Assembly (NCBI GenBank): GCA_025351485.1
Contig: JANXVU010000046.1
Span: forward strand, 1-58,793
Length of the DNA stretch: 58,793 nt
Direction of reading: 5' to 3'
DNA from: Candidatus Eiseniibacteriota bacterium
Lineage (GTDB): Bacteria > Eisenbacteria > RBG-16-71-46 > JACRLI01
Shown here: piece after piece, positions 42,799 through 58,530 of the stretch
Layout of the letters: each line of letters starts with the position of its first letter
Numbering within the stretch: the first letter of the stretch is position 1
Notes under the pieces: generated by a model
Databases searched by the model: none
Told to the model about the DNA's origin: nothing
What the model saw: only the letters and a program-made list of their open reading frames with translations
Position numbers and translations under genes: made by a program

Positions 42799-45700
42799 AT
42801 GTCTCTAACCCTGCTTCAAGGTCCGGCCGGCAGCGGAAAGACCTTTCACTGCCTGGTGCGGTTGCGCCTGTCGCGATCCGCGGGAGACTGGGAGTCCACC
42901 GTGCTGCTGGCGCCGGCCCAGAACCTGTACTCGCTGCGGGCCGCGCTGCCCACTTCCGCCCTGCCGGTCCTGCTCGGCCGGCCGGTGCTGAGCCTGGACG
43001 CGGGGGATCGCATGACCTCGTTTGGCGGTTGGGTGCTGGGCGAGGGAGTCCCCGAGTGGGACCGCCGGTTGGAGACCGCCAGCCAGATCCTGCTGCTTCG
43101 GCGCGTGCTCCGGGAGGGGCCGCCATCCATGCTGGACACCTCCGCGCGCACCCTGGGGTTTTCGCTGGAACTGGCCCGGCTGATTCGCGAGTGGAAGGAA
43201 GCCATGCTGGAGCCCGCGGACGTGCAGTTGGCCTTTCCCGCGCCGGAGGGCCCCTCGGAGTGGTCCCGTCCCGCCGACCTGGCCAGGCTCTTCGCCCGCT
43301 ACCAGGAGGCCCTGGCCGCGGAGTCCGTGCTGGACACCCAGGACCTCGAGCGGCGGGTGCTGCGCCAGCTCGCCTCCTCCAGGGAGCGCCTGGGCCGCAC
43401 GCACTTCCTGGTGGACGGCTTTTCCAATTTCACGCGCTGGCAGCTGGAAGTGCTGGGGGAGCTCGCCGCGCACGCAGGCTCGCTCGTCGTCACGTTCCTG
43501 TACGAGGAAGGCCGCGACTGGGTGTTCCGCCATCTCGAAGGCGAACGGCAGCTGCTCACCTCCCTCGGCGGACGGGCCGCCGTGATACGGACCCTGGATT
43601 CCCAGAGGCGCCTTGGCGCGGACTCCCTGCGCACCCTGGAGCGCGGGCTCTTCCGGGGGGCGCCGGTCACCGCGGATCCGGGCGAGGCCGTGGAGTGGAT
43701 GGAGGCCCCGGATCCGGTGGCCGAGCTCGAGGAAATCGCGCGCCGGATCCGCCGGATGGTTCGCGACGACGGCTACCGGTTCGACGAGATCGCCGTCCTG
43801 TTCCGCAACCTGGCCCCCGCCCGCCGCAGGGTGGAAGAGATCTTCGCCGCCCACGGAATTCCCGCGTTCGTCGACAGCGCCGAAGAGCAGCTGCATACCG
43901 CGCCGGCCCGCGCCGCGCGCCAGGTGCTGGCCCTGCACTCCGGGCAGTCCCGCGCCGACGTGGCGCTCGCGCTCTTTCGGAGCCCGCTGGTGCCGGCCCT
44001 TCGCGAAGATGCGGACGCCCTGGAGTTGATGGCGGGCCGGCAGGGAATCCGCAGCGCCTCGATGCTGCTGGAGCAGGCGGGCGCATCGCTGGGGCCTGAC
44101 TCGCCGATCGCCCGGGTCTCGGAGTCCCTGCGGGCACGCTTTGCGAACGGCGCTCCCAGGAGCGCCGAAGACTGGGTCAAGACCGTGCGCGAGTGCCTGG
44201 AGGCCCTGGGCGCCGGGGAGGCCCGCAGGCAATCGCCAGAGCTCCACCGGCGCCACCGCGCCGCCTGGGACAAGCTGGACGCGCTGCTGGACGTGCTCGC
44301 CTCGGACCCGGGGAAGAGTCTCAGCCGCCGCGAGTTCGACGACATGCTCACCGAAATGCTCACCGCGGGCGCCACGTCGGACGTGCCGCGCAGCACCGGC
44401 CAGGTGCTGGTGGCGGACATCTTTCGCTCCAGGCTGCCGGAGCTGCGGGCGCTGTTCGTGCCGGGCTTGAACGAGGGCGTGTTTCCGGCCCGCCCGCAGG
44501 AGAACGCGCTGTTCGGGGACTCGGACCGCGAAGAGCTGAATCTGCATTCACACTCCAGGCTGCCGCTCGCGCGCACCCGCGCCGACGAGGAGTACTACCT
44601 GTTCTACGTCGCCGTCACGCGCGCCTCGGAGCGGTTGGTGTTGAGCTCGGCGCGCGCGGACCTCGAGGGAAGCGAGCATCGGCCGTCCATCTTCCTGGCG
44701 GAAGTTCGGCGCGTGCTGCCCGGCCTGGAAATCACGCCGGCCTCGGGCCCCGACCGGGGCCTCCGGGCGCCGCTGGATGAGGGGGAGCTGGACGCTTCCG
44801 TGGCGGCAGCGCTGTGGCGCGAGCCTCACGACGGCCCGCAGGCGGCGGCGCTGCTGCACATCCACAACGCCCGGCTCGAGTCGCGCGGGAGCTCGCCGTG
44901 GGCGACCACCGAGCGCCTCGAACAAGTGGAGGCGCTGCGGCGCGACACGCTGGACTCCAACGCCTCCCGCCTGGAGACCTTCGCCACGTGCCCCTTCCAG
45001 CACTTCGCGCGACACGAACTGCGGCTCGAGGAGGCCCGCGAGCTGGATTTCGGGGCGCTCGAAGACGGCACGTTGCTCGACTCGGTGTCGACTTCGCTGT
45101 TGCGCGAGGTGCGCGACGCGGGCGGATTGGCCGCCTCGGAATCGGCCGACGAGCTCAAGGCCCGGCTCAAGACGATGCTCCGGTCCGAGCTGGAATCCAG
45201 GTACGCCGCGCAGATGGCCCGCCCGGCATGGAAGGCCCGCGTGCCGCGGCTGGAGGCGGCCCTCGGGCGCTTCGCCGACGTGCTGTGGAAGGAGCGCGAG
45301 GAGGGGCGCTGGGAGCCGCGCTACTTCCAGCTTTCCTTTGGAAGCGCGCGTCCGGCGGACGACTCCGCCTCGCGCAAGGAACGCTGGAAATTCACCACCG
45401 GCAAAGTGGAACTCCGCCTGGAGGGCCGCCTGGACCGGGTGGACCTGGGACGGGACGATCCCGGATCGGCGCGCGTCGTGGACTTCAAGCGCAGCTCCGC
45501 CTCGGCGCCCGCGCACAAGCTTCGCGACGGCCGCATGCTGCAGACCGGGCTCTACAGCCTGGCGCTGGAGGAGCTCTGGGGAGTCCGGGTGCTGGAGGCC
45601 GGCAACTTCGCTTTCCGGAATTCGAAGTTTGTAGACCTTCGAAAGGCCCTCGCGCGCGAGCTGGGCGGCAAGGACCCCGCCGAGCCGCCCGACACCGCCG

Positions 45701-45885
45701 CGCACACCCGCGCCCAGATCACGAGGCTCGCGGAGCTTATCGCGTCGGGCGACTCCCGGGTGCGCCCGAGTCCCGGCGCCTGCGCCCACTGCGACTTCGG
45801 CGCCGTGTGCCGGCTGGACCGGTGGGAAAAGCTCCTGACCGCAGAAGCCGAGCGCGAGGAGGACGACGATGACGACTCCGCCTGA
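42799..45885 (+). CDS. addB: AddB-like helicase-nuclease subunit
   Basis: The 1028-residue protein matches AddB, the partner of AddA in double-strand-break processing. It has Walker A GPAGSGKT (8-15), UvrD-like helicase motifs (VAVTRASERLVLSSA) and a C-terminal RecB-family PD-(D/E)XK nuclease (EGRLDRVDL, then VVDFKRSS at about 895). The Fe-S-type cysteines lie at about 731 (TCPFQHFARHE) and in CAHCDFGAVC near 1000; the staple joins the ends of the nuclease domain. It overlaps addA by 17 bp, so translation is probably coupled. Confidence 0.88.
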   Translation: MSLTLLQGPAGSGKTFHCLVRLRLSRSAGDWESTVLLAPAQNLYSLRAALPTSALPVLLGRPVLSLDAGDRMTSFGGWVLGEGVPEWDRRLETASQILLLRRVLREGPPSMLDTSARTLGFSLELARLIREWKEAMLEPADVQLAFPAPEGPSEWSRPADLARLFARYQEALAAESVLDTQDLERRVLRQLASSRERLGRTHFLVDGFSNFTRWQLEVLGELAAHAGSLVVTFLYEEGRDWVFRHLEGERQLLTSLGGRAAVIRTLDSQRRLGADSLRTLERGLFRGAPVTADPGEAVEWMEAPDPVAELEEIARRIRRMVRDDGYRFDEIAVLFRNLAPARRRVEEIFAAHGIPAFVDSAEEQLHTAPARAARQVLALHSGQSRADVALALFRSPLVPALREDADALELMAGRQGIRSASMLLEQAGASLGPDSPIARVSESLRARFANGAPRSAEDWVKTVRECLEALGAGEARRQSPELHRRHRAAWDKLDALLDVLASDPGKSLSRREFDDMLTEMLTAGATSDVPRSTGQVLVADIFRSRLPELRALFVPGLNEGVFPARPQENALFGDSDREELNLHSHSRLPLARTRADEEYYLFYVAVTRASERLVLSSARADLEGSEHRPSIFLAEVRRVLPGLEITPASGPDRGLRAPLDEGELDASVAAALWREPHDGPQAAALLHIHNARLESRGSSPWATTERLEQVEALRRDTLDSNASRLETFATCPFQHFARHELRLEEARELDFGALEDGTLLDSVSTSLLREVRDAGGLAASESADELKARLKTMLRSELESRYAAQMARPAWKARVPRLEAALGRFADVLWKEREEGRWEPRYFQLSFGSARPADDSASRKERWKFTTGKVELRLEGRLDRVDLGRDDPGSARVVDFKRSSASAPAHKLRDGRMLQTGLYSLALEELWGVRVLEAGNFAFRNSKFVDLRKALARELGGKDPAEPPDTAAHTRAQITRLAELIASGDSRVRPSPGACAHCDFGAVCRLDRWEKLLTAEAEREEDDDDDSA

Positions 45886-48800
45886 AACCGCCGCTCCGGG
45901 CGCCGACTTTTCGCCCGCACAGGAGGCGGTGATCGCCGCCACGGAACGGGAAGTCTGGGTCACCGCGGCCGCCGGCTCGGGCAAGACCCGCTGCCTGGTG
46001 GAGCGCCTGGCCCGCGCGCTCCTGGCCGACCCCGAAGCGGCCACGCGCACGGTGGCGTTCACCTTCACCCGCAAGGCCGCCCAGGAAATGCTCGGGCGGC
46101 TGCGGCAGAAGATCTACGAGAAGGACCACCGCGAAGCCGCCCGGTTCATCGACCGGTTCCACATCGGCACCATGGACAGCTACTGCTTCCACGCGCTGCG
46201 CTCCCATGCGGCCGAAGCGGGGCTGGACCCGCAATTCGAGATCCTGGACGAGATCGAGCGGTTCCGGCTCCAACGCCGCGTCTCCGAGGCCGTGGTGGAG
46301 ACGGCCGCCGGGTCCGATGACGCCGCGCTGCGGGCGTGGTTTCTCCGCCACGAACCCGCGGACCTGGAGGAACTGATCCGGAAGACCTCGGACACGCTGC
46401 GCAGCGCGGGGGATGCGCTGCAGTTGCTGGAAGAGTGGGAAAAGGGTGAAGGCCGGGACTTCGGGGCTTACAAGGCTGCCTACGAGGCCCGGCACGTGGC
46501 CCTTCAAGAGCGGATCCTGGCCAGGGTGAAGCCCGTTGCGGACCTGGCGATTGCCCACGCCACTCGGCGCGACCAGGACCGCGAGCTCTACCAGGGAGCC
46601 ATGGCCCGGCTCGCCGGCGGGCGCTGGGACCCCGGCGCCTGGGCCGACCTGCGAAGCTCGTTCCGGGGAGGGATCGGCCCCCGGCCCCTGCACGCGGACT
46701 TCAATGCGGTGCGCGAGCCCGCCATGGCCATCCTGGACAGTTCGATCATCGGGCTGCTCAGGAAGCTGTCGGGTGCGGAAAAGTCCGCCGACGAAGAGCT
46801 CTTCCGGCTGCTCCGGGCCTTCGTGCCGCTCCTGCGCGACTACCTGGCCCGGCTGGAATCGGCCAAGTTGCGCATGGTGCCGCAGCGGCTCGACTACCAG
46901 GACATCCAGCTGCGCGTGGCCCGCCTGGCCTCGGGCTCCGAGGCGTTCCGCGAGCACGCCGCCCGCGAAATCCGGCACCTGCTGGTGGACGAGTTCCAGG
47001 ACACCAGCGGACTGCAGTCGCGCCTGGTGGAGGCGCTCGGGGAGGGCGCGGCCACCTTTGGCGTGGGGGATGCCATGCAGAGCATCTACCGGTTCCGTCA
47101 CGCGGACGTGGAGCTCTTCGCCGAACGGTTGCGGCGCGCTCCCGGTCCCGAACGCTCCGTTCACCACCTGCGCACCAACTACCGGAGTCGGCGCGGCATC
47201 CTGGACTTCGTGAACCTGATCTTTCCCGAACTGGAGCGCGCCGCAGACTCGGTGCTGCCCCTGTTCGAAGCGCTGGATGCCCCGGAGTGGCTTCCCCCCT
47301 CGGATGCGCCCGACGTGGACCTTCTCACCGTGGTCCGGCCCGATCCCGCCCTGCAGATCGACGCCTCCCGCTTGCGGGTGGCCGAGGCGCGGGCGGTGGT
47401 GGCGCGCCTCCGGGAGCTCCGCGAATCAGGGATGAAGGTGGCGGACGGAAAGGGCGGCACGCGGGAACTCCGGTGGAGTGACGTGGCCATCCTGTTCCGC
47501 GCGCGCGCCGCGCTTCCGACCTTCGCCAAAGTGCTGGCCGACCAGGGCGTCCCCTGTGAATCGTCCGACCAGGCGCTGCTGCTGGAGACTCTTGAAGCGT
47601 CGGACCTGCAATCGTTGCTCAAGGTCCTGCACAACCCGCGGAACGACGTCGCGATGGCGGCGGTATTGCGCTCGCCGTTCGTGGATCTTTCGGATCCGGG
47701 GATCCTGGCGGTGGCTTCGATGGACCGGCGCCTGCTTTCGAAGTCCTCGCAGAAGCCTTCGCTGCTCGCTTCGCTCCGCCATCCGGACATGGCCGGGGCG
47801 CTGGACCCGCGGGACGCCGAGCGCGTGCGAGAGTTCCTGGCGCGCATGGAGCCTTCCCGCGATCGGGTACTCACCGAGGGCGCTCCCCGGGTGCTGCGCG
47901 AATGGCTCGACCAGACCGGCTACCTGGCGCGCGAGGGCGCCCGCCGGCCCGCGGAACCGATCCGGGCCAACCTGGAAGCGCTGCTGGAATGGCTGCGTGG
48001 CATCGAGCCCGCGCGAGGCGACCTGCAGGGATTGCTGGAGCGGCTGGAACTGCTGCGGGAAGAGGAGAACGGCCGGGGCGAGGGCGCCGGCTCCGCCGTC
48101 AAAGGCGTCCAACTCCTGACCATTCACCGGGCCAAGGGCCTGGAGTATCCCGTGGTGGTGGTGCCGCACCTGGACCGGGAATTGAATCGAGCCGGCCGGA
48201 GCCCCGCCGGGCTGCGCGTTCGGTTCGACGGACCGGGGCGGGCGCTGCGCCTGGCGGTGCGCATGGGCTCCTCCTTCGGAGATCCGCGCGAACTCCGGGG
48301 GTGGGCGGACGCGTGGATGGACGAAGATTCAAAGCGCGACGACCGGCTGGAGGAAGTCCGCCTGCTCTATGTCGCGTGCACCCGCGCGCGGGATCGCCTG
48401 ATCCTTTCCGGGCTCACCAGGCCCGATGAAGATGCCGCCGCGTCATTCAGGTCCGAGAGCTATGGCGGTTGGATCGCTTCCGCCCTGGAATCCGTGCGCC
48501 GCTCGGGCCGCGATGTGGCGCGGGTCGTCCAGGCCATCGAGCGCCGCTATGAAGACGTGGAAGCGCCCGACGAGAAGGCCGCGGCCGCGCGTCCCCTGGC
48601 GCTCGAGCTGGCCGCGCTGATCCGGGCGGGCCGGCCGGTTCCCGTGGAAGCGGACCCGTCCCTGAAGGCCGCGGCCGAACGGCTGCTGGCCGAGGCCGGG
48701 AAGGCACTCGTCACTCCGCCCGCCGCGCCGCGCGACCTGCCCGCCGGCGGCCTGGCGCGGGCGCTCATTTGCCCGTGGTTCTGGAGGCTTCGCTCGTGGC

Positions 48801-49468
48801 TGGACGAGGTGCGTGGCGAACGCGAACGCGGAGCCTCCGAAGAGGGCGGGGAGGCCAGCGAGCGGGGCGAGCGCGTGCACCGCATGTTCGAAGAATGGAA
48901 CGTGGAGAAGTCGTTCGAGGACGAGTTCGAGCGGCTGGTCCTTCTCGCGGAAATGCCCGCGGAAGAGGCGTCGCAGGTGCGCGGCTGGATATCGAAGCCG
49001 GAAATCCTGCAGGCCACCGCGGAACTCCAATCCGCCACGGCCTGGTGGCGCGAGCTGCCTTTCGAATGGCAGGTGGGCGGGACGCGGATCTCGGGAAGGA
49101 TGGACGCGCTCGTGCGCCTCCCCGACGGCACACTGTGCGTCGTGGACTACAAGACCGACGTGGGGGATGGAGCGGCGGAGCAGTATCTGCATCAAACAGC
49201 CATCTATGCAGCGGCCGTGGAGCGCGCCGGTCTCGGACGGGTCGCCCACCGCCGGTTGATCTATCTTCGGCAGGGAAAGGTGAAGGACCTTCCCTGGGGC
49301 GAGGACGACACCGAGGCACTGGAAGCGCGGATCGCTTCCGTGCTGGGGCAACTGGTCGCCGACCCGGACTCCGTGCCCGCTTGCGGGGCCTGCCGCGCCC
49401 TGAAGGCTGGGGAGAGCCGGACCTGTCCCGAGCGGCTGGCGGTTGGCGCGCACGCGTCGATTCCGTAG
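45869..49468 (+). CDS. addA: AddA-like UvrD-family helicase-nuclease
   Basis: The 1199-residue protein has the superfamily 1A set: Q motif FSPAQEAVIA, Walker A AAAGSGKTRCL (about 34-42), TFTRKAAQEML, HIGTMDSYC, LVDEFQDTSGLQ, GDAMQSIYRFRHA, LTIHRAKGLEYPVVVV and YVACTRARDRLILSG. A C-terminal nuclease carries SGRMDAL and VVDYKTD near residue 1092 and the QTAIYAAAVERA helix. This is the AddA layout. GAGGAGG lies 6 nt before the ATG within addB. The pair processes DNA ends for RecA. Confidence 0.93.
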   Translation: MTTPPETAAPGADFSPAQEAVIAATEREVWVTAAAGSGKTRCLVERLARALLADPEAATRTVAFTFTRKAAQEMLGRLRQKIYEKDHREAARFIDRFHIGTMDSYCFHALRSHAAEAGLDPQFEILDEIERFRLQRRVSEAVVETAAGSDDAALRAWFLRHEPADLEELIRKTSDTLRSAGDALQLLEEWEKGEGRDFGAYKAAYEARHVALQERILARVKPVADLAIAHATRRDQDRELYQGAMARLAGGRWDPGAWADLRSSFRGGIGPRPLHADFNAVREPAMAILDSSIIGLLRKLSGAEKSADEELFRLLRAFVPLLRDYLARLESAKLRMVPQRLDYQDIQLRVARLASGSEAFREHAAREIRHLLVDEFQDTSGLQSRLVEALGEGAATFGVGDAMQSIYRFRHADVELFAERLRRAPGPERSVHHLRTNYRSRRGILDFVNLIFPELERAADSVLPLFEALDAPEWLPPSDAPDVDLLTVVRPDPALQIDASRLRVAEARAVVARLRELRESGMKVADGKGGTRELRWSDVAILFRARAALPTFAKVLADQGVPCESSDQALLLETLEASDLQSLLKVLHNPRNDVAMAAVLRSPFVDLSDPGILAVASMDRRLLSKSSQKPSLLASLRHPDMAGALDPRDAERVREFLARMEPSRDRVLTEGAPRVLREWLDQTGYLAREGARRPAEPIRANLEALLEWLRGIEPARGDLQGLLERLELLREEENGRGEGAGSAVKGVQLLTIHRAKGLEYPVVVVPHLDRELNRAGRSPAGLRVRFDGPGRALRLAVRMGSSFGDPRELRGWADAWMDEDSKRDDRLEEVRLLYVACTRARDRLILSGLTRPDEDAAASFRSESYGGWIASALESVRRSGRDVARVVQAIERRYEDVEAPDEKAAAARPLALELAALIRAGRPVPVEADPSLKAAAERLLAEAGKALVTPPAAPRDLPAGGLARALICPWFWRLRSWLDEVRGERERGASEEGGEASERGERVHRMFEEWNVEKSFEDEFERLVLLAEMPAEEASQVRGWISKPEILQATAELQSATAWWRELPFEWQVGGTRISGRMDALVRLPDGTLCVVDYKTDVGDGAAEQYLHQTAIYAAAVERAGLGRVAHRRLIYLRQGKVKDLPWGEDDTEALEARIASVLGQLVADPDSVPACGACRALKAGESRTCPERLAVGAHASIP

Positions 49469-51515: not shown

Positions 51516-51544
51516 TTGACGAACGACTCTCTAAATCGTATATT
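51516..51544 (+). promoter_or_regulatory. Strong promoter of the arsR-arsM fusion
   Basis: TTGACG (51516-51521) and TATATT (51539-51544) have a 17-bp spacer, predicting a start near 51551. It is the best sigma-70-like match in the window and overlaps a candidate ArsR operator. Confidence 0.75.
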
Positions 51545-51550
51545 GACGAT
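51535..51550. promoter_or_regulatory. Candidate ArsR operator overlapping the -10 box
   Basis: ATCGT and ACGAT are exact inverted halves with a 6-bp centre (ATCGT-ATATTG-ACGAT), covering the TATATT -10. ArsR-family repressors commonly bind such short dyads at their own promoters, so autoregulation is likely. Confidence 0.55.
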
Positions 51551-51585
51551 GAACGATGGTTAAACCCGACGGAGGCCCGATCCCC

Positions 51586-52689
51586 ATGAAATCGAAGAAT
51601 CCCGCCAAGTCCAGGTTACAAAAGCCGGGTCCCCAGGCCCCCACCATCCGGGACCGGGAACTGGCCCTGTTCGCCAAGGCCATCGCCCATCCGGCCCGGG
51701 TGGCGATCCTGCGCGGGCTGTTGGAACGCGGAGGGTGCGTGTGCGGAGAAATCGTGAACACACTGCCGCTGTCGCAGGCCACGGTATCGCAGCACCTCAA
51801 GGTGATGAAGGAGGCGGGCCTCCTGTCCGGGGAGGTGGATGGCCCCCGGGTGTGCTATTGCCCCGAGCCCAGGACGATTGCCCGCCTGAAGTTCCTGGTG
51901 GGAGAACTCCACGTAAAGGAGGAGGACATGAAGAACGAGGGGGATGTGCGAGAGAGCGTTCGAGAGAAGTATGGTTCCCTGGCCGCAGCCGGTGGTGGCT
52001 GCTGCGGCGATGGCACTGGCAGCGGCTGCGGATCCGGAGCGGATGTGCTCACCCGCATCGGCTACAGCGACGAGCAGCGGGCCGCGGTCCCCGAGGGCGC
52101 CAACCTGGGCCTGGGCTGCGGCAACCCGCTCGGCTACGCGGACGTGAAACCGGGTGAGACCGTGCTCGACCTGGGCTCGGGAGCCGGAATCGACGCTTTC
52201 CTCGCGAGCGTGCAGACCGGCCCCGCCGGCCACGTGATCGGCGTGGACATGACCCCGGCCATGATCGACCGGGCCCGGGCCAACGCGCAGAAGGGGAACT
52301 ATTCGAACGTCGAATTCCGGCTGGGCGAGATCGAGCACCTGCCGCTGGCCGACTCCACGGTGGACGTGATCATCAGCAACTGCGTGGTCAATCTTTCCCC
52401 GGACAAGCCGCAGGTGTTTCGCGATGCCCACCGCGCGCTCAAACCGGGCGGCCGCCTGCTGATCAGCGACCTGGTGTGGCTGCGCGAAGTGTCTTCCGAA
52501 ACCAGGAAAAAAGCCGAGTCCGCGGTGGGCTGCGTGGCCGGGGCCTCCCTGCTCGGAGACTATCTGCGCCTGATGCAGGATGCGGGATTCAAGGACGTAG
52601 AAGTCCTCGCGCAGAACAACTACGCAAGCCCGCAGGTGGAGGGTTCCGCGGACATTGGCTCGGTCAAGGTGCGCGCCCGGAAAGCGTGA
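51586..52689 (+). CDS. arsM: ArsR repressor fused to ArsM arsenite methyltransferase
   Basis: The 367-residue ORF joins two arsenic proteins. Residues about 22-105 are an ArsR-type winged helix ([38 protein letters not shown]) with the As(III) site CVC at 51-53 and a second CYC at 90-92. Residues 115-367 are Ars[14 protein letters not shown] motif [15 protein letters not shown] (193-207), and the ligand Cys at 139/140, 178 (LGCGNP), 266 (ISNCVVNL) and 316 (VGCVAG). ArsM methylates As(III) to volatile or oxidised methylarsenicals. At codon 115 an internal ATG (51928) sits 5 nt after AAGGAGG, so separate ArsM may also be made. ATG at 51586 has GGAGG 10 nt upstream; ATG at 51556 is an alternative. 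Confidence 0.9.
51916..51930 (+). promoter_or_regulatory. Internal ribosome-binding site and ATG at the ArsR/ArsM junction
   Basis: AAGGAGG at 51916-51922 lies 5 nt before an in-frame ATG at 51928. A TAA (51914-51916) occurs in the +1 frame just before it, as if the repressor once ended there. Confidence 0.7.
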
Positions 52690-52708: not shown

Positions 52709-53065
52709 TCAGGCCGTTGATGGAACTTCTGCCGGGTGCCCCGGCCAGCGCCGCCGGAACCACACCGCCTTGCTCATCAGGAACGGAACCAGGAACATCA
52801 CCACGAAGTAGATTAGCAGCGGAATGGCAATTCGGACCACGTCCAGCGGCAGCTGCACGATGGCCGCGCCCTTCAGCGAGAACATCACCACGGTGGTGCC
52901 GACGCTGAAGCGGTTCAGGAAGGGGACCACGCCCGGGAATACGAAACCGACTCCCACTCCGACGGCCATGGCGAGGCAGATCCACACGGTCAGGTAGCGA
53001 TCGAGAAATGAAAGTCTCCGGCGGGCTCCGGTCAATTCCCGCCCTGGGGTGGCAGCCTGCTTCAC
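52709..53065 (-). pseudogene. acr3: Arsenite efflux pump ACR3 remnant with two in-frame internal deletions
   Basis: An open frame of 118 codons encodes only parts of an ACR3 permease. [19 protein letters not shown] to [10 protein letters not shown] is the normal ACR3 start. It then jumps straight to VVMFSLKG to [13 protein letters not shown], which belongs to the eighth-to-ninth helix region of ACR3, and again to AVWFRRRW near the C-terminus. About 170 and about 70 residues (family recollection) are missing, including the catalytic Cys of helix 4 and the conserved Glu of helix 9, so it cannot be a working pump. The GTG at 53065 has GGAG 5 nt upstream. An assembly collapse is an alternative explanation. 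Confidence 0.8.
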
Positions 53066-53082
53066 GCCGACTCCAATCCGGC

Positions 53083-54189
53083 CTATACCCCGAAGTCGAT
53101 CACGTTCTTGATGCCGGGAGCTTTTCCGCTCAGCGGATCCGCAAAGTCCTCGATGGCGTAGCGGCCCGTGATCAGCCCGCGCACCGCGACGGGCCACTTC
53201 TCCATGAATATGCCCAGGCTCGCGATGGCAGCCTCGAACGCGTCCCGCCCGGCGTTGACGGTTCCGAGCACCACCTGGTTCTTCAGCACCAGGCTCCGCA
53301 TCAGGCGGTCGGTGTCCACCTGGATGGGCCCCCGGCGCCCCGGCACTCCGGTGAACACGAAGATACCGTTCGTCCCCAGCACCTGCATCACCTCGAAGGC
53401 CAGGCTGGAAGCGCCCACCGCCTCGTACACCAAGTCGATGTTGCCGATCCCGGCGGCCAACTGCTCGACCGATGTCGCCTCCGCGTGCACGAACTTGATC
53501 CCGATGGACTCCGCCAGCGCCACCCGGGAGTCGCCGTCCGCGGCCCGGGAGTACACACAGGTGTCAAAGCCCTCCGCCACCAGCGACATCGCCCCCAGCA
53601 ATCCCACCGGTCCGCCGCCCAGCACCACCGCGCGGTGGCGGGTCTCGCCTTCGCCGTGCCGAACCTGCCATGGGAGCCGCTGCTGGATTTCGTGAACCTG
53701 CCGCAGCGCTTTCTGCGCGATGGTGAGCGGCTCCACCAGCACCGCCACTTCCCGCAGGGCCGGCGGAACGAGGTTGAGATACTGCTGGTCCTCGACCACG
53801 TACTCGGCCATGTATCCGTTCGCCTGCTTGATGCCGCGCTCGGTGAAGTCCCCCGAGACGCAGAAATCCTGGCGGCCCACCCGGCAGGGGTCGCACCAGT
53901 CGTGGGGGCACGGGCGGCGCACCATCGGGACGATCAGGTCGCCGGGCTTGAATCCGGTCACGCCGCTGCCGATTTCCACGATTTCCATCAGCGACTCGTG
54001 GCCGATCACCAGGCCGTCCGAGCCGTCGGGAGGCGTGCCGTAGTCGAACGCGCAGATCTCCTTGTCGGTTCCGCATACGCCCACCTGCAGGGTGCGCATC
54101 CGCACCTGGGTGGGGGTCGTGATCGCGGGCTCGTCCAGTTCGACCAGCTTCACTTCGCGGCGCGACGGGTAGACGGTGATGGCTTTCAC
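53083..54189 (-). CDS. Zinc-dependent alcohol/glucose dehydrogenase-like (MDR) protein
   Basis: The 368-residue medium-chain dehydrogenase has catalytic zinc residues ([15 protein letters not shown]), a structural-zinc cluster ([19 protein letters not shown]) and a Rossmann motif [16 protein letters not shown]. The closest pattern is the archaeal-type glucose 1-dehydrogenase group with the Glu_dehyd_C end, but the substrate is not certain. GTG at 54189 has AGGAG 9 nt upstream. The acr3 remnant begins 17 bp after its stop, so the two are probably one transcript. Confidence 0.82.
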
Positions 54190-54297: not shown

Positions 54298-54348
54298 GTT
54301 CCCGGGTCCCCGGTGGGGATCCCGAAACGGCCCAAACATGGAGGCCCC

Positions 54349-55665
54349 ATGAGCACCCACGGACTGACCACCCACCACCGCGAAGATCTGCTCGCGCGCC
54401 TCGCGGATTCCCGCCGGAGCACGGACGAGTTGTTCACCATCGTCCGGCCCGAGGCGATCTACGACCGGCCCATCCCGGAGCGCCACCGGATCCTGTTCTA
54501 CATCGGCCATCTGGAAGCCTTCGACTGGAATCTGCTGGGCCGCGGGGCCTTTGGCCTGCCCGCGTTCAACGAGTCGTTCGACAAGCTGTTCGCATTCGGC
54601 ATCGACCCGGTGGGTGGAGGGCTTCCCGACGACCTGCCCACCGCCTGGCCCACGGTCGAGGCCACGCGCGCCTATGGCGACCAGGTGCGCCGGGCGCTCG
54701 ATGAGCGGCTGGTGACGGAAAGAGACATGGACGAGGCGCGCCTGGCCGACTACGTGAACGTGGCCATCGAGCACCGACTGATGCACGCCGAGACCCTGGC
54801 CTACATGCTTCACCAGCTGGGCCACGACCGCAAGCTTCCCCAGCCGCAGGCCGCCGCCCCGGCGGGCCGGCCGGTGCCCGGCCGCCTGATCGAGATCCCG
54901 GCCGGCACGGCCACCCTGGGCCGCAAGCGCGGCAGCGGCTTCGGGTGGGACAACGAGTTCGAGGAGCACGCGGTGCGCGTGCCCGCTTTCGCCGTGGACG
55001 AGTTGCCCGTGACCAACGGCCAATTCCTGAAATTCATGAAGGCCGGGGGCTATGACAACCGCGGCCTGTGGGCCGCCGACGACTGGGAGTGGCGGAGCAA
55101 GCACGACGTGCGGCATCCGGCCTTCTGGGCGCAGCGCGGGCAGGAGTGGATGTACGTCGGCATGTTCGACGAGGTGGCGCTGCCGCCGGATTGGCCCGTG
55201 TACGTGAGCCTGGCCGAGGCTCGCGCCTACACCAACTGGGCGGGGCGCTCGCTCCTGACCGAAGCGCAGTTCCATCGCGCCGCGTTCGGCACGCCCGAGG
55301 GTTCGGAGCGGGTCTATCCGTGGGGTGAAGTTGTTCCCGGGGCGCGGCACGGCAACTTCGACTTCGATCGCTGGGATCCGTCTCCGGTCGGCGCATACGG
55401 CGCAGGGGACAGCGCCTTTGGGGTGGCCGAACTGGTGGGCAACGGGTGGGAGTGGACGCAGAGCCGTTTCGAACCGTTCAAGGGCTTCGAGGCGTTCCCG
55501 TTCTACCCCGGGTACTCCGCCAACTTCTTCGACGGACTGCACTACGTGATGAAGGGCGGATCCGCCCGCACTGCCTCGTGCATGCTACGTGGTTCCTTCC
55601 GCAACTGGTTCCAGGCGCACTACCCCTACGTGTACGCCAAGTTCCGCGGCGTGTGGAACGGCTAG
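54349..55665 (+). CDS. egtB: Ergothioneine biosynthesis protein EgtB
   Basis: EgtB is the iron-dependent sulfoxide synthase that joins hercynine to a thiol (gamma-glutamylcysteine or cysteine). The 438-residue protein has an N-terminal DinB-like four-helix domain with the iron ligands His54 (IGHLEAF), His142 and His146 (EHRLMHAE). A C-terminal formylglycine-generating-enzyme-like domain follows (GFGWDNEFEEH, WAGRSLLTEAQFHRAAFG, VAELVGNGWEWTQS, RGSFRNWF). GGAGG precedes the ATG at 54349. egtD follows 9 bp later, in the usual order. Confidence 0.92.
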   Translation: MSTHGLTTHHREDLLARLADSRRSTDELFTIVRPEAIYDRPIPERHRILFYIGHLEAFDWNLLGRGAFGLPAFNESFDKLFAFGIDPVGGGLPDDLPTAWPTVEATRAYGDQVRRALDERLVTERDMDEARLADYVNVAIEHRLMHAETLAYMLHQLGHDRKLPQPQAAAPAGRPVPGRLIEIPAGTATLGRKRGSGFGWDNEFEEHAVRVPAFAVDELPVTNGQFLKFMKAGGYDNRGLWAADDWEWRSKHDVRHPAFWAQRGQEWMYVGMFDEVALPPDWPVYVSLAEARAYTNWAGRSLLTEAQFHRAAFGTPEGSERVYPWGEVVPGARHGNFDFDRWDPSPVGAYGAGDSAFGVAELVGNGWEWTQSRFEPFKGFEAFPFYPGYSANFFDGLHYVMKGGSARTASCMLRGSFRNWFQAHYPYVYAKFRGVWNG

Positions 55666-55674
55666 GGGATCCGG

Positions 55675-56643
55675 GTGAGCGTCTCTCTTCATCGGCTGAA
55701 GCAGGAAGAAGCCTTTGCGGCCGACGTGCGCGCCGGGCTGGGGCGCGAGGGGCAGAAGACCCTGCCGTCCAAGTATTTCTACGACCCGCGCGGGTCCGAT
55801 CTCTTTGAAGCCATCACGCGGCTGCCCGAGTACGGACTGACCCGCGCCGACGAACGCGTCCTGCTCTCCCACGGCCGCGAGATCGTGGAATCCATCCGCG
55901 GCCCGCTGGTGGTTGCCGAGTTGGGCAGCGGGAGCGCCACCAAGACCAGGCACATCCTGGAAGCCGCCGCGCGCCGCGGCTCGCTGGCCTATCATCCGAT
56001 CGAGATCTCTCCGGCCGCGCTGCGGGAGAGCTCCCAGGGGCTCGGGGACATTCCCGGGCTCAAAATCACGGCCCACCGGGCAGAGTACCTGGAGGGTCTG
56101 CGCGAAGTGGTCGCGAGGGTGCCCGAGGGCCACCGCCTGCTGCTGTTGTTCCTCGGGAGCAGCATCGGCAACTTTGCGCAGGAGGAGGCGGAGATCTTTC
56201 TGGCCGAAGTCCGCGCGCTTCTGCAGATGGGGGACGTGCTGCTGCTGGGCACCGACCTGGTCAAGCCGGTTCATCGCGTGGTTCCCGCTTACGACGATGA
56301 AGCCGGCGTGACGGCGGCCTTCAACCTGAACATTCTGGCCCGCATCAACCGCGAGTTGGGCGCAAACTTCGAGCTGGACGCCTTCGAGCACAAGGTCCGC
56401 TATGACGTGGCGCTGCAGCGGGTGGAAATGCACCTGCGTTCCCGCCGCGACCAACAGGTCTCCATTCCGGGCGCGGGGCTCACGGTGGGAGTCCTTGCCG
56501 GGGAGACCATCTGGACGGAAAGTTCCCACAAGTACCGCATCCAGGACGTGGTGGATATCGCGGCGCGGTCCGGGTTCCTGTGCGAGCAGCAATGGGTGGA
56601 CCAGGAGTGGCCGTTCGCGGAGAGCCTGCTGCGGGCCTGCTAA
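55675..56643 (+). CDS. egtD: L-histidine N(alpha)-methyltransferase EgtD
   Basis: EgtD makes hercynine (trimethylhistidine) from histidine with three SAM. The 322-residue protein matches the usual 321-residue length. Seen: LPSKYFYDPRGSDLFEAIT, the SAM motif VAELGSGSATKTRHIL, LLLFLGSSIGNF and the C-terminal substrate loop WTESSHKYRIQDVVDIA with the conserved Glu and Ser. A GTG start at 55675 follows GGGGAT. With EgtB it supplies the two core steps; EgtC and EgtE are not adjacent. Confidence 0.94.
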   Translation: MSVSLHRLKQEEAFAADVRAGLGREGQKTLPSKYFYDPRGSDLFEAITRLPEYGLTRADERVLLSHGREIVESIRGPLVVAELGSGSATKTRHILEAAARRGSLAYHPIEISPAALRESSQGLGDIPGLKITAHRAEYLEGLREVVARVPEGHRLLLLFLGSSIGNFAQEEAEIFLAEVRALLQMGDVLLLGTDLVKPVHRVVPAYDDEAGVTAAFNLNILARINRELGANFELDAFEHKVRYDVALQRVEMHLRSRRDQQVSIPGAGLTVGVLAGETIWTESSHKYRIQDVVDIAARSGFLCEQQWVDQEWPFAESLLRAC

Positions 56644-56776: not shown

Positions 56777-57568
56777 TCACGTCAGCACGGATCCGCCGGC
56801 TCCCGGGCAATGCGACTCGCAGCATCTCCGCATCCCGGGCAGGTGTGGATTTCGTGGATCGCGCCCCCGGTCGTTCCGCCTTCGTTCTCGCCCACCCACT
56901 CCACGAATTTCTCCGCATGGTGGTTCATCTCTTGCGCGCAGCGCGGGCAAATGATCGGGCTGCCCGGGTCCCTGCCTGGTCGTTGCCATCGACGCCTCCT
57001 GGCTCAGGGCCACCTTTTCGCGGCCGTGGCGCAGCACTTTGGACATCCAGATCAGCTCCGAGAGAAATTTGGCATACCGCTCGACATAGGCGGGCTCCAG
57101 CAGGTGGCCCTCCGTGTCGAAGACCTTGTGCACGGCCGAAAACTTTACGTCCCAGAATATGGTCACCAGCCCGAGCTCACGCATGACCGGCAGGAGCCCC
57201 TGGATGCCGCGGCTTCCTCCGAACGGCCCCGCCGAAACCCCTACGATACCCCCTGCCTTGTGAATGTATTCCTTCAGGCAGCTGTCCAGCACGTGTTTCA
57301 ACAGCCCCGAATAGGCGTGATTGTACTCCGGCGAGACCACGATCAAGCCATCGGCCCGCTGCATCTTCTCTGAAAAACCAGTGTCCTTGATGGCTTCGCC
57401 GGCGTCGTCCACCGGAATGGGCAGCGCGGCAATGTCGATGAGCTCCGTTTCCACACCGAGACGGGAGCCCGTCTGTTCCGCGACGAATCGCGCGACGTGC
57501 CGGCTCTGGCGGCACTTTCGGACCGTCCCAAGGATGACCGGCAGGAACAATGGTCGTTCCTCGTTCAT
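56777..57568 (-). CDS. NADPH-dependent FMN reductase (frame continues into a shifted zinc-ribbon segment)
   Basis: Residues 1 to about 190 form a flavodoxin-like reductase: VILGTVRKCRQSRHVARFV, IDIAALPIPVDDAGEA, ADGLIVVSPEYNHAYSGLLK and GPFGGSRGIQGLLPVMREL. It reduces FMN or quinone-like substrates with NADPH. The open frame then continues for about 73 residues that look wrong (RRNDRGRDPRNPHLPGM). The adjacent frame over the same bases encodes a convincing zinc ribbon, so the C-terminus is frameshifted. The stop expected near residue 190 is absent. The start overlaps the stop of the CusF-SCO gene (ATGA). Confidence 0.75.
   Translation of the reverse strand: MNEERPLFLPVILGTVRKCRQSRHVARFVAEQTGSRLGVETELIDIAALPIPVDDAGEAIKDTGFSEKMQRADGLIVVSPEYNHAYSGLLKHVLDSCLKEYIHKAGGIVGVSAGPFGGSRGIQGLLPVMRELGLVTIFWDVKFSAVHKVFDTEGHLLEPAYVERYAKFLSELIWMSKVLRHGREKVALSQEASMATTRQGPGQPDHLPALRARDEPPCGEIRGVGGRERRRNDRGRDPRNPHLPGMRRCCESHCPGAGGSVLT
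56782..56989 (-). pseudogene. Zinc-ribbon protein broken by a one-base frameshift (or fused tail of FMN reductase)
   Basis: An ATG at 56989, preceded by AGGAGG 5 nt upstream, opens MATTRQGPG in the FMN reductase frame. Skipping one G of the GGG at 56965-56963 continues as SPIICPRCAQEMNHHAEK and then an HTCPGCGDAAS block, ending at TGA 56784-56782. Two CxxC pairs and the MNHHAEK stretch are typical of a small conserved zinc-ribbon family. So this is either a separate gene with an insertion, a fusion with one frameshift, or a base error. Confidence 0.65.
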
Positions 57569-58494
57569 GGAACTCCCTTCGATCCGTTTTGTTTGGTTTG
57601 GGGGCCCGGGCTTCCCGCCAGGGCCGCCCGCAGCTCGCCCACCAGCTCGTGCGCCGACCAGTGGGTGCCCTCGATGCGGCGCTGGAGCACGCCGTCCGGG
57701 CGGTACACGAACACCGCGTTCTCATGGTTCATGGCCGGTCCTTCGCCCTCCACCCGCACTCCCTGCCGGGAGCGAAACGCCCGGGCCTCGGCGGGGTCGC
57801 CGGTCGCCACCGTCCAGATCGCGGGATCCACGTGATGGGTCTTCTCGTACTCGGCGATGCGGGCAGGCGTGTCGTAGACGGGATCCAGCGAGACCATCAG
57901 GAGATGCACCCGCGCTGCCAGATCCCCGGATGAGGCCAGCTCGCGCTGCGCCTCTCCCAACGTGGTTGCGAGGCGCGGGCATGCCTCGGGCACCGGGCAG
58001 CGGGTATAGAAGAAAGCCACGGCCAGCGCCTTGCCCCGAAAATCAGCAGGAGTGAATCGCCGGCCCCGCGAGTCCAGCAGCGTGGCCTGGGGCAGGGAGT
58101 CCAGCCCCGGCCGGCTTCCGGCTCGACGGGCGCGCGCACCGTGACCCGTCACCCGCACCCGGTCGAGGCGCGAGCGGCCCCGCATCACCTGGAAGGTCGC
58201 CTCCAGGCTGTCGCCCACCTTGATGCCCCGGAACTCCGGCTCGGAACCCACCTCGAAAGGCATGGTCATCGCGGGCATCAAGCCCGGCACGTCCTCGTGG
58301 CGCAGCACCACCATCCGCGGACCGGGGCCCAGCTCCTCCACCACTCCCCGGATCGGGAAGGAGCGCGCGCCGTGCCACGGATCGGACTGGCCGCTGAGGA
58401 ACCACCAGCCCAGCAGCATTTCGGGGACCGAGATCGCGAAGATCAGGAAGATCTTTATCCCGGGAGACAGGTTCTTCAGCGGATTGTCGGCCAT
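57565..58494 (-). CDS. CusF-like copper-binding domain fused to SCO1/SenC domain
   Basis: The 309-residue protein has an N-terminal anchor helix (IKIFLIFAISVPEMLLGWWF), a CusF-like Cu-binding domain at about 50-120 (MVVLRHEDVPGLMPAMTMPF) and a SCO1/SenC thioredoxin-like domain with the Cu ligands CPVPEAC and the later His in MNHENAVFVY. SCO proteins deliver Cu to the CuA site of cytochrome oxidase or act as thiol reductases. The gene starts an operon with the FMN reductase. ATG at 58494 is chosen with TATCAT 6 nt upstream. Confidence 0.88.
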   Translation of the reverse strand: MADNPLKNLSPGIKIFLIFAISVPEMLLGWWFLSGQSDPWHGARSFPIRGVVEELGPGPRMVVLRHEDVPGLMPAMTMPFEVGSEPEFRGIKVGDSLEATFQVMRGRSRLDRVRVTGHGARARRAGSRPGLDSLPQATLLDSRGRRFTPADFRGKALAVAFFYTRCPVPEACPRLATTLGEAQRELASSGDLAARVHLLMVSLDPVYDTPARIAEYEKTHHVDPAIWTVATGDPAEARAFRSRQGVRVEGEGPAMNHENAVFVYRPDGVLQRRIEGTHWSAHELVGELRAALAGSPGPQTKQNGSKGVP

Positions 58495-58500
58495 GGGCGG

Positions 58501-58530
58501 ATGATACGGGATTCGGGGATGGCGCTCCAA
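58501..58530 (-). promoter_or_regulatory. Promoter giving leaderless CusF-SCO mRNA
   Basis: On the minus strand TTGGAG (58530-58525) and TATCAT (58506-58501) are 18 bp apart, and the -10 ends 6 nt before the ATG. There is no Shine-Dalgarno sequence. Confidence 0.6.

Follow-up and report, generated by a model that had tools for sequence, protein, structure and literature searches.

In Arsenicibacter rosenii SM-1, the ArarsRMC operon (PMC11868830) carries arsR and arsM as separate genes in the order arsR-arsM and continues into arsC. Its regulator ArArsR is an autorepressor that responds to As(III) and MAs(III) and carries the cysteines of a C-x-C and a V-C-Y-C motif; C41, C80 and C82 are required for As(III), while C43 is dispensable (PMC11868830). 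The DNase-footprinted site of ArArsR includes ATCGTAATATTGCGAT, an operator of the form ATCG-N8-CGAT near the core promoter, where it overlaps the -35 box (PMC11868830).

Fusion of an ArsR to a methyltransferase as such is already known, as a preliminary description of the present locus had noted. ArsR^M of Brevundimonas sp. M20 is a single polypeptide in which an ArsR-type winged helix is followed by a SAM methyltransferase, and it is encoded by a 960-bp gene in a met operon; both DNA binding and As(III) methylation have been reported for it, with CTTTATATAAAG as the operator and with As(III) assigned to Q224 and Y228, not to cysteines (PMC10190100). An ArsR-ArsC fusion is known too (PMC6205960), whose partner domain differs from the one described below. 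An ArsSM fusion, which is named in a title cited in PMC12124457, has another partner domain, and in two NCBIfam selenoprotein families, ArsM-AhpD (NF041537) and ArsM-DUF2284 (NF041536), ArsM is joined to still other domains. In the literature that we searched, we found no description of a fusion between ArsR and a canonical ArsM of the cysteine type.

Domains and control elements of the joined frame

The window, i.e. the whole stretch of DNA that was analysed (58,793 nucleotides), belongs to a 'Candidatus Eisenbacteria' MAG of 3.44 Mb in 186 contigs (98.6% complete), the sole representative of its family in our genome sample, and the closest proteins among named relatives are from Candidatus Eisenbacteria MAGs. 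At positions 51586-52689 of the forward strand lies a single stop-free frame of 367 codons (367 aa), with an ArsR domain at residues ~21-107 and a complete ArsM at residues ~116-365 (Table 1). In NCBIfam, residues 28-99 match the metalloregulator ArsR/SmtB (NF033788) at 63.6 bits, against a cut-off of 55, and residues 116-351 match arsenite methyltransferase (PRK11873) at 317.5 bits, against a cut-off of 263; Pfam is concordant (HTH_20/HTH_5 at residues 33-80, Methyltransf_31 at 188-332). Thus, the earlier observation that one ORF unites an intact ArsR with a full ArsM was borne out, with an open frame and both families above their curated cut-offs. The 5′-most ATG of the ORF, at 51556, would give 377 aa; 51586 appears to be the better start, since GGAGG precedes it at 51571-51575 and since 51556 nearly coincides with the expected transcription start.

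Table 1. Features of the arsenic locus, in positions of the window
Feature	Position	Strand	Basis and remarks
Sigma-70-type promoter TTGACG-N17-TATATT	51516..51544	+	10/12 consensus
Predicted ArsR operator ATCGTATATTGACGAT	51535..51550	+	ATCG-N8-CGAT, overlaps the -10 box
arsR ribosome-binding site GGAGG	51571..51575	+	Sequence, 10 nt 5′ of ATG 51586
arsR domain, residues 1-108	51586..51909	+	NF033788; C51, C53, C90, C92
Junction/linker, residues 109-114	51910..51927	+	Out-of-frame TAA at 51914-51916
Retained arsM translation start AAGGAGG-AGGAC-ATG	51916..51930	+	ATG 51928-51930 = M115; relatives begin arsM correspondingly
arsM, 253 codons + stop	51928..52689	+	PRK11873; SAM motif DLGSGAG; C148, C178, C266, C316
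ACR3 arsenite-efflux gene remnant	52709..53197	-	Convergent with arsRM; TIGR00832 positions 1-40 and 225-269 of 327

The four cysteines of the ArsR domain are invariant across 22 aligned ArsR proteins, those of Spirosomaceae included, and correspond with a constant offset of 10 to C41, C43, C80 and C82 of ArArsR; hence counterparts of all three cysteines that ArArsR requires are present. The preliminary description had taken CVC at residues 51-53 as the As(III) site. This motif is there, but its two cysteines do not make up the whole of the likely site: since the equivalent of C53 is dispensable in ArArsR, we prefer C51, C90 and C92 over CVC as the entire site, and by analogy these three are probably the As(III) ligands. 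Likewise, a response of this ArsR to As(III) and MAs(III) is predicted from its likeness to ArArsR.

In the C-terminal part, the four ligand-type cysteines and the SAM motif that had been noted were found again. C178, C266 and C316 align with the ligand cysteines of CrArsM and CmArsM, the closest solved structures both by sequence and by predicted fold, while the alignment of C148, and hence its match to a ligand, is less certain. By family score, cysteines and SAM motif, this part can be assigned to ArsM, the arsenite S-adenosylmethionine methyltransferase. A fusion of the Brevundimonas ArsR^M type was considered and set apart by the published description of that protein: the domain order is alike, but the arsenic site is of the cysteine type here, and the neighbouring genes that we saw are not met genes.

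TTGACG-N17-TATATT is the sole promoter match in the region, where shuffled sequences give 0.1. The predicted operator, ATCGTATATTGACGAT, has the same form and layout as the footprinted ATCGTAATATTGCGAT of ArArsR, although it overlaps the -10 box and not the -35 box as in ArarsRMC; moreover, the operon does not continue into arsC. No other ATCG-N8-CGAT occurs in the window, a size at which about one is expected by chance; what counts is where it lies. Upstream of arsR, this pattern was found at 21 of 34 Bacteroidota loci and at all 20 of those Eisenbacteria loci for which the upstream sequence was long enough, and 67.8 kb of Eisenbacteria background contained 0 sites.

The same pattern is kept across two phyla before arsRM of the ArArsR type (Eisenbacteria loci L010-L031 and many Bacteroidota loci). 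This result is more general than the junction itself: the regulator type and operator described in 2025 from Bacteroidota also appear to govern arsRM throughout Candidatus Eisenbacteria, so that in this uncultured phylum the regulon for arsenic methylation can be predicted from the sequence.

The junction and its possible origins

ArsR homology stops at about residue 108 (VGEL) and ArsM homology picks up after M115. Between the domains, AAGGAGG-AGGAC-ATG provides arsM with a start of its own and a strong ribosome site; two such internal start motifs occur in the window against 0.42 expected, which makes the motif uncommon but not unique. Directly 5′ of AGGAGG, one base out of frame, is a TAA at the place where relatives carry the arsR stop, and the off-frame TAAAGGAG is similar to the arsR stop of the Eisenbacteria locus L031 (CGG TAA AGGAG). 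Taken alone the off-frame TAA is weak evidence, since chance stops in other frames near a junction are common. As a whole, the junction is consistent with a shift by one base in an ancestral layout of two genes, whether this shift be genuine or artefactual. AlphaFold2, with an alignment of read-through rows as input, gave two well-folded domains and a pLDDT below 50 for residues 110-119, so that the linker is predicted to be disordered.

The junction was compared across 73 distinct arsR-arsM pairs on one strand and <600 nt apart, from Eisenbacteria, Bacteroidota and others. Separate genes were found in 72 pairs, and only the window's pair is fused. Among the unfused pairs, 32 have both genes in one frame with at least one stop codon between them, and the remainder have a frame change. 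The arsM start of Eisenbacteria mostly falls in a range from 4 nt upstream to 54 nt downstream of the arsR end, often in ATGA. The two-gene arsRM operons of this phylum (e.g. L010-L031) resemble the window's locus in proteins about 50-65% identical, in the operator and in a tight or overlapping junction; however, in every one of them the genes are divided, either by a stop codon or by a change of frame. Separate arsR and arsM were also found in two plasmid records (Calothrix and Halomarina), and a profile of these ArsRs run against 175 ArsM frames matched the window's frame only.

Genome scans covered about 1,230 genomes with an ArArsR-type regulator as query, so that fusions with very different ArsR types could escape them. 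Among the matches listed for 47 Eisenbacteria genomes there was no second stop-free frame across both domains. Nor was a stop-free ArsR-ArsM among the matches listed for the Spirosoma class (395 genomes), the phylum of an Anaerolineae MAG (400 genomes) and the phylum of a Phycisphaerales MAG (392 genomes), with the best five candidates per genome scored in these three sets. The statement of the preliminary description that no exact match to this junction was known agrees with these data, in which the same two-domain order was sought and no other case was found in the sample. An old conserved ArsR-ArsM fusion family was therefore rejected, since none of the other 72 adjacent pairs is fused and no further case was among the scan matches listed.

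A stop-free junction that is unique among 73 loci, in a MAG of 186 contigs, could also be the product of an error. If one base near 51910-51914 had been gained or lost in assembly or sequencing, the arsR stop (TAA 51914-51916) would be masked and the locus would be an ordinary two-gene arsRM; the end of ArsR homology immediately 5′ of the junction and the TAA followed by AGGAGG, located where relatives terminate arsR, are consistent with this. On the other side, the junction contains no homopolymer, and the long genes for Mfd (1130 aa), AddA (1199 aa), AddB (1028 aa) and RlmD (454 aa) are all unbroken in the same contig, from which we take indel errors to be infrequent there. Both facts make an indel error unlikely a priori, and we consider such an artefact a serious but clearly minor possibility, while the fused frame is, with good probability, genuine.

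We favour, with somewhat better than even confidence, an arsR-arsM operon of the ArArsR type in which the arsR stop has come out of frame and from which both a fusion and free ArsM are produced. From the sequence of the locus we infer the following course of events. Without arsenite, the ArsR part would sit as a dimer on ATCGTATATTGACGAT over the -10 box and repress its own operon; upon binding of As(III) or MAs(III) at C51/C90/C92, the repressor would leave the DNA. Two products would then be translated from the transcript, the ArsR-ArsM fusion beginning at ATG 51586 and free ArsM beginning at 51928, where the start has been retained. ArsM would methylate As(III) with SAM, and with falling As(III) repression would return, as in an ordinary operon. 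The two genes were probably joined recently in this lineage, by a change that is nearly neutral. If real, the joining means that a tightly packed regulator-enzyme operon easily becomes one protein while the start of the second gene is kept.

It is rather unlikely, in our estimate, that an expressed ArsR-ArsM, in which both parental cysteine sites are complete, uses its repressor part to bring the enzyme to its own promoter, with free ArsM supplied from the internal start. The preliminary description had gone further, proposing that fusion ties As(III) release to methylation and makes the enzyme its own feedback regulator. Key residues are indeed kept in both domains of such a selected bifunctional sensor-enzyme, and there are precedents for ArsR fused to ArsC (PMC6205960) or to a different methyltransferase (PMC10190100). 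However, the junction is a singleton among the loci compared, the predicted disordered linker is unconserved and the internal arsM start has been kept. Moreover, an operon of separate genes yields the identical feedback loop: methylation by one protein lowers As(III) and ArsR re-binds, so that a feedback mechanism by fusion is not needed. The claim of built-in feedback was thus not upheld, and we regard a selected sensor-enzyme as very improbable.

The arsenic locus and its neighbours

The convergent ACR3 remnant next to arsRM lacks profile positions 41-224 by an internal deletion and 270-327 by loss of the C-terminus, and is still one open frame. That arsRM shares in this erosion, the joined frame being an early step to a pseudogene, is suggested by the adjoining remnant but must be called extremely improbable, with the operator, promoter, ribosome sites, four ArsR cysteines and ArsM motifs all intact and with an identity to relatives (about 60%) similar to that among the relatives themselves. 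The remnant is the only ACR3 match in the MAG and lies below the cut-off, and searches of the MAG for ArsB and ArsP found none; hence, insofar as the bin is complete, this organism may rely mainly on ArsM for its defence against arsenite.

Several other features of the window were observed. Homologues of AddB and AddA lie in tandem at 42799-49468 (+) with an overlap of 17 nt. Near the arsenic locus, at ~54300-56643 (+), are ergothioneine genes, in which egtD (TIGR03438, 305.9 bits) is located directly 3′ of an ORF that, from our reading of its translation, we take to be egtB-like. At 57565-58530 (-), a SCO1/SenC domain is joined to a CusF-like copper-binding domain.
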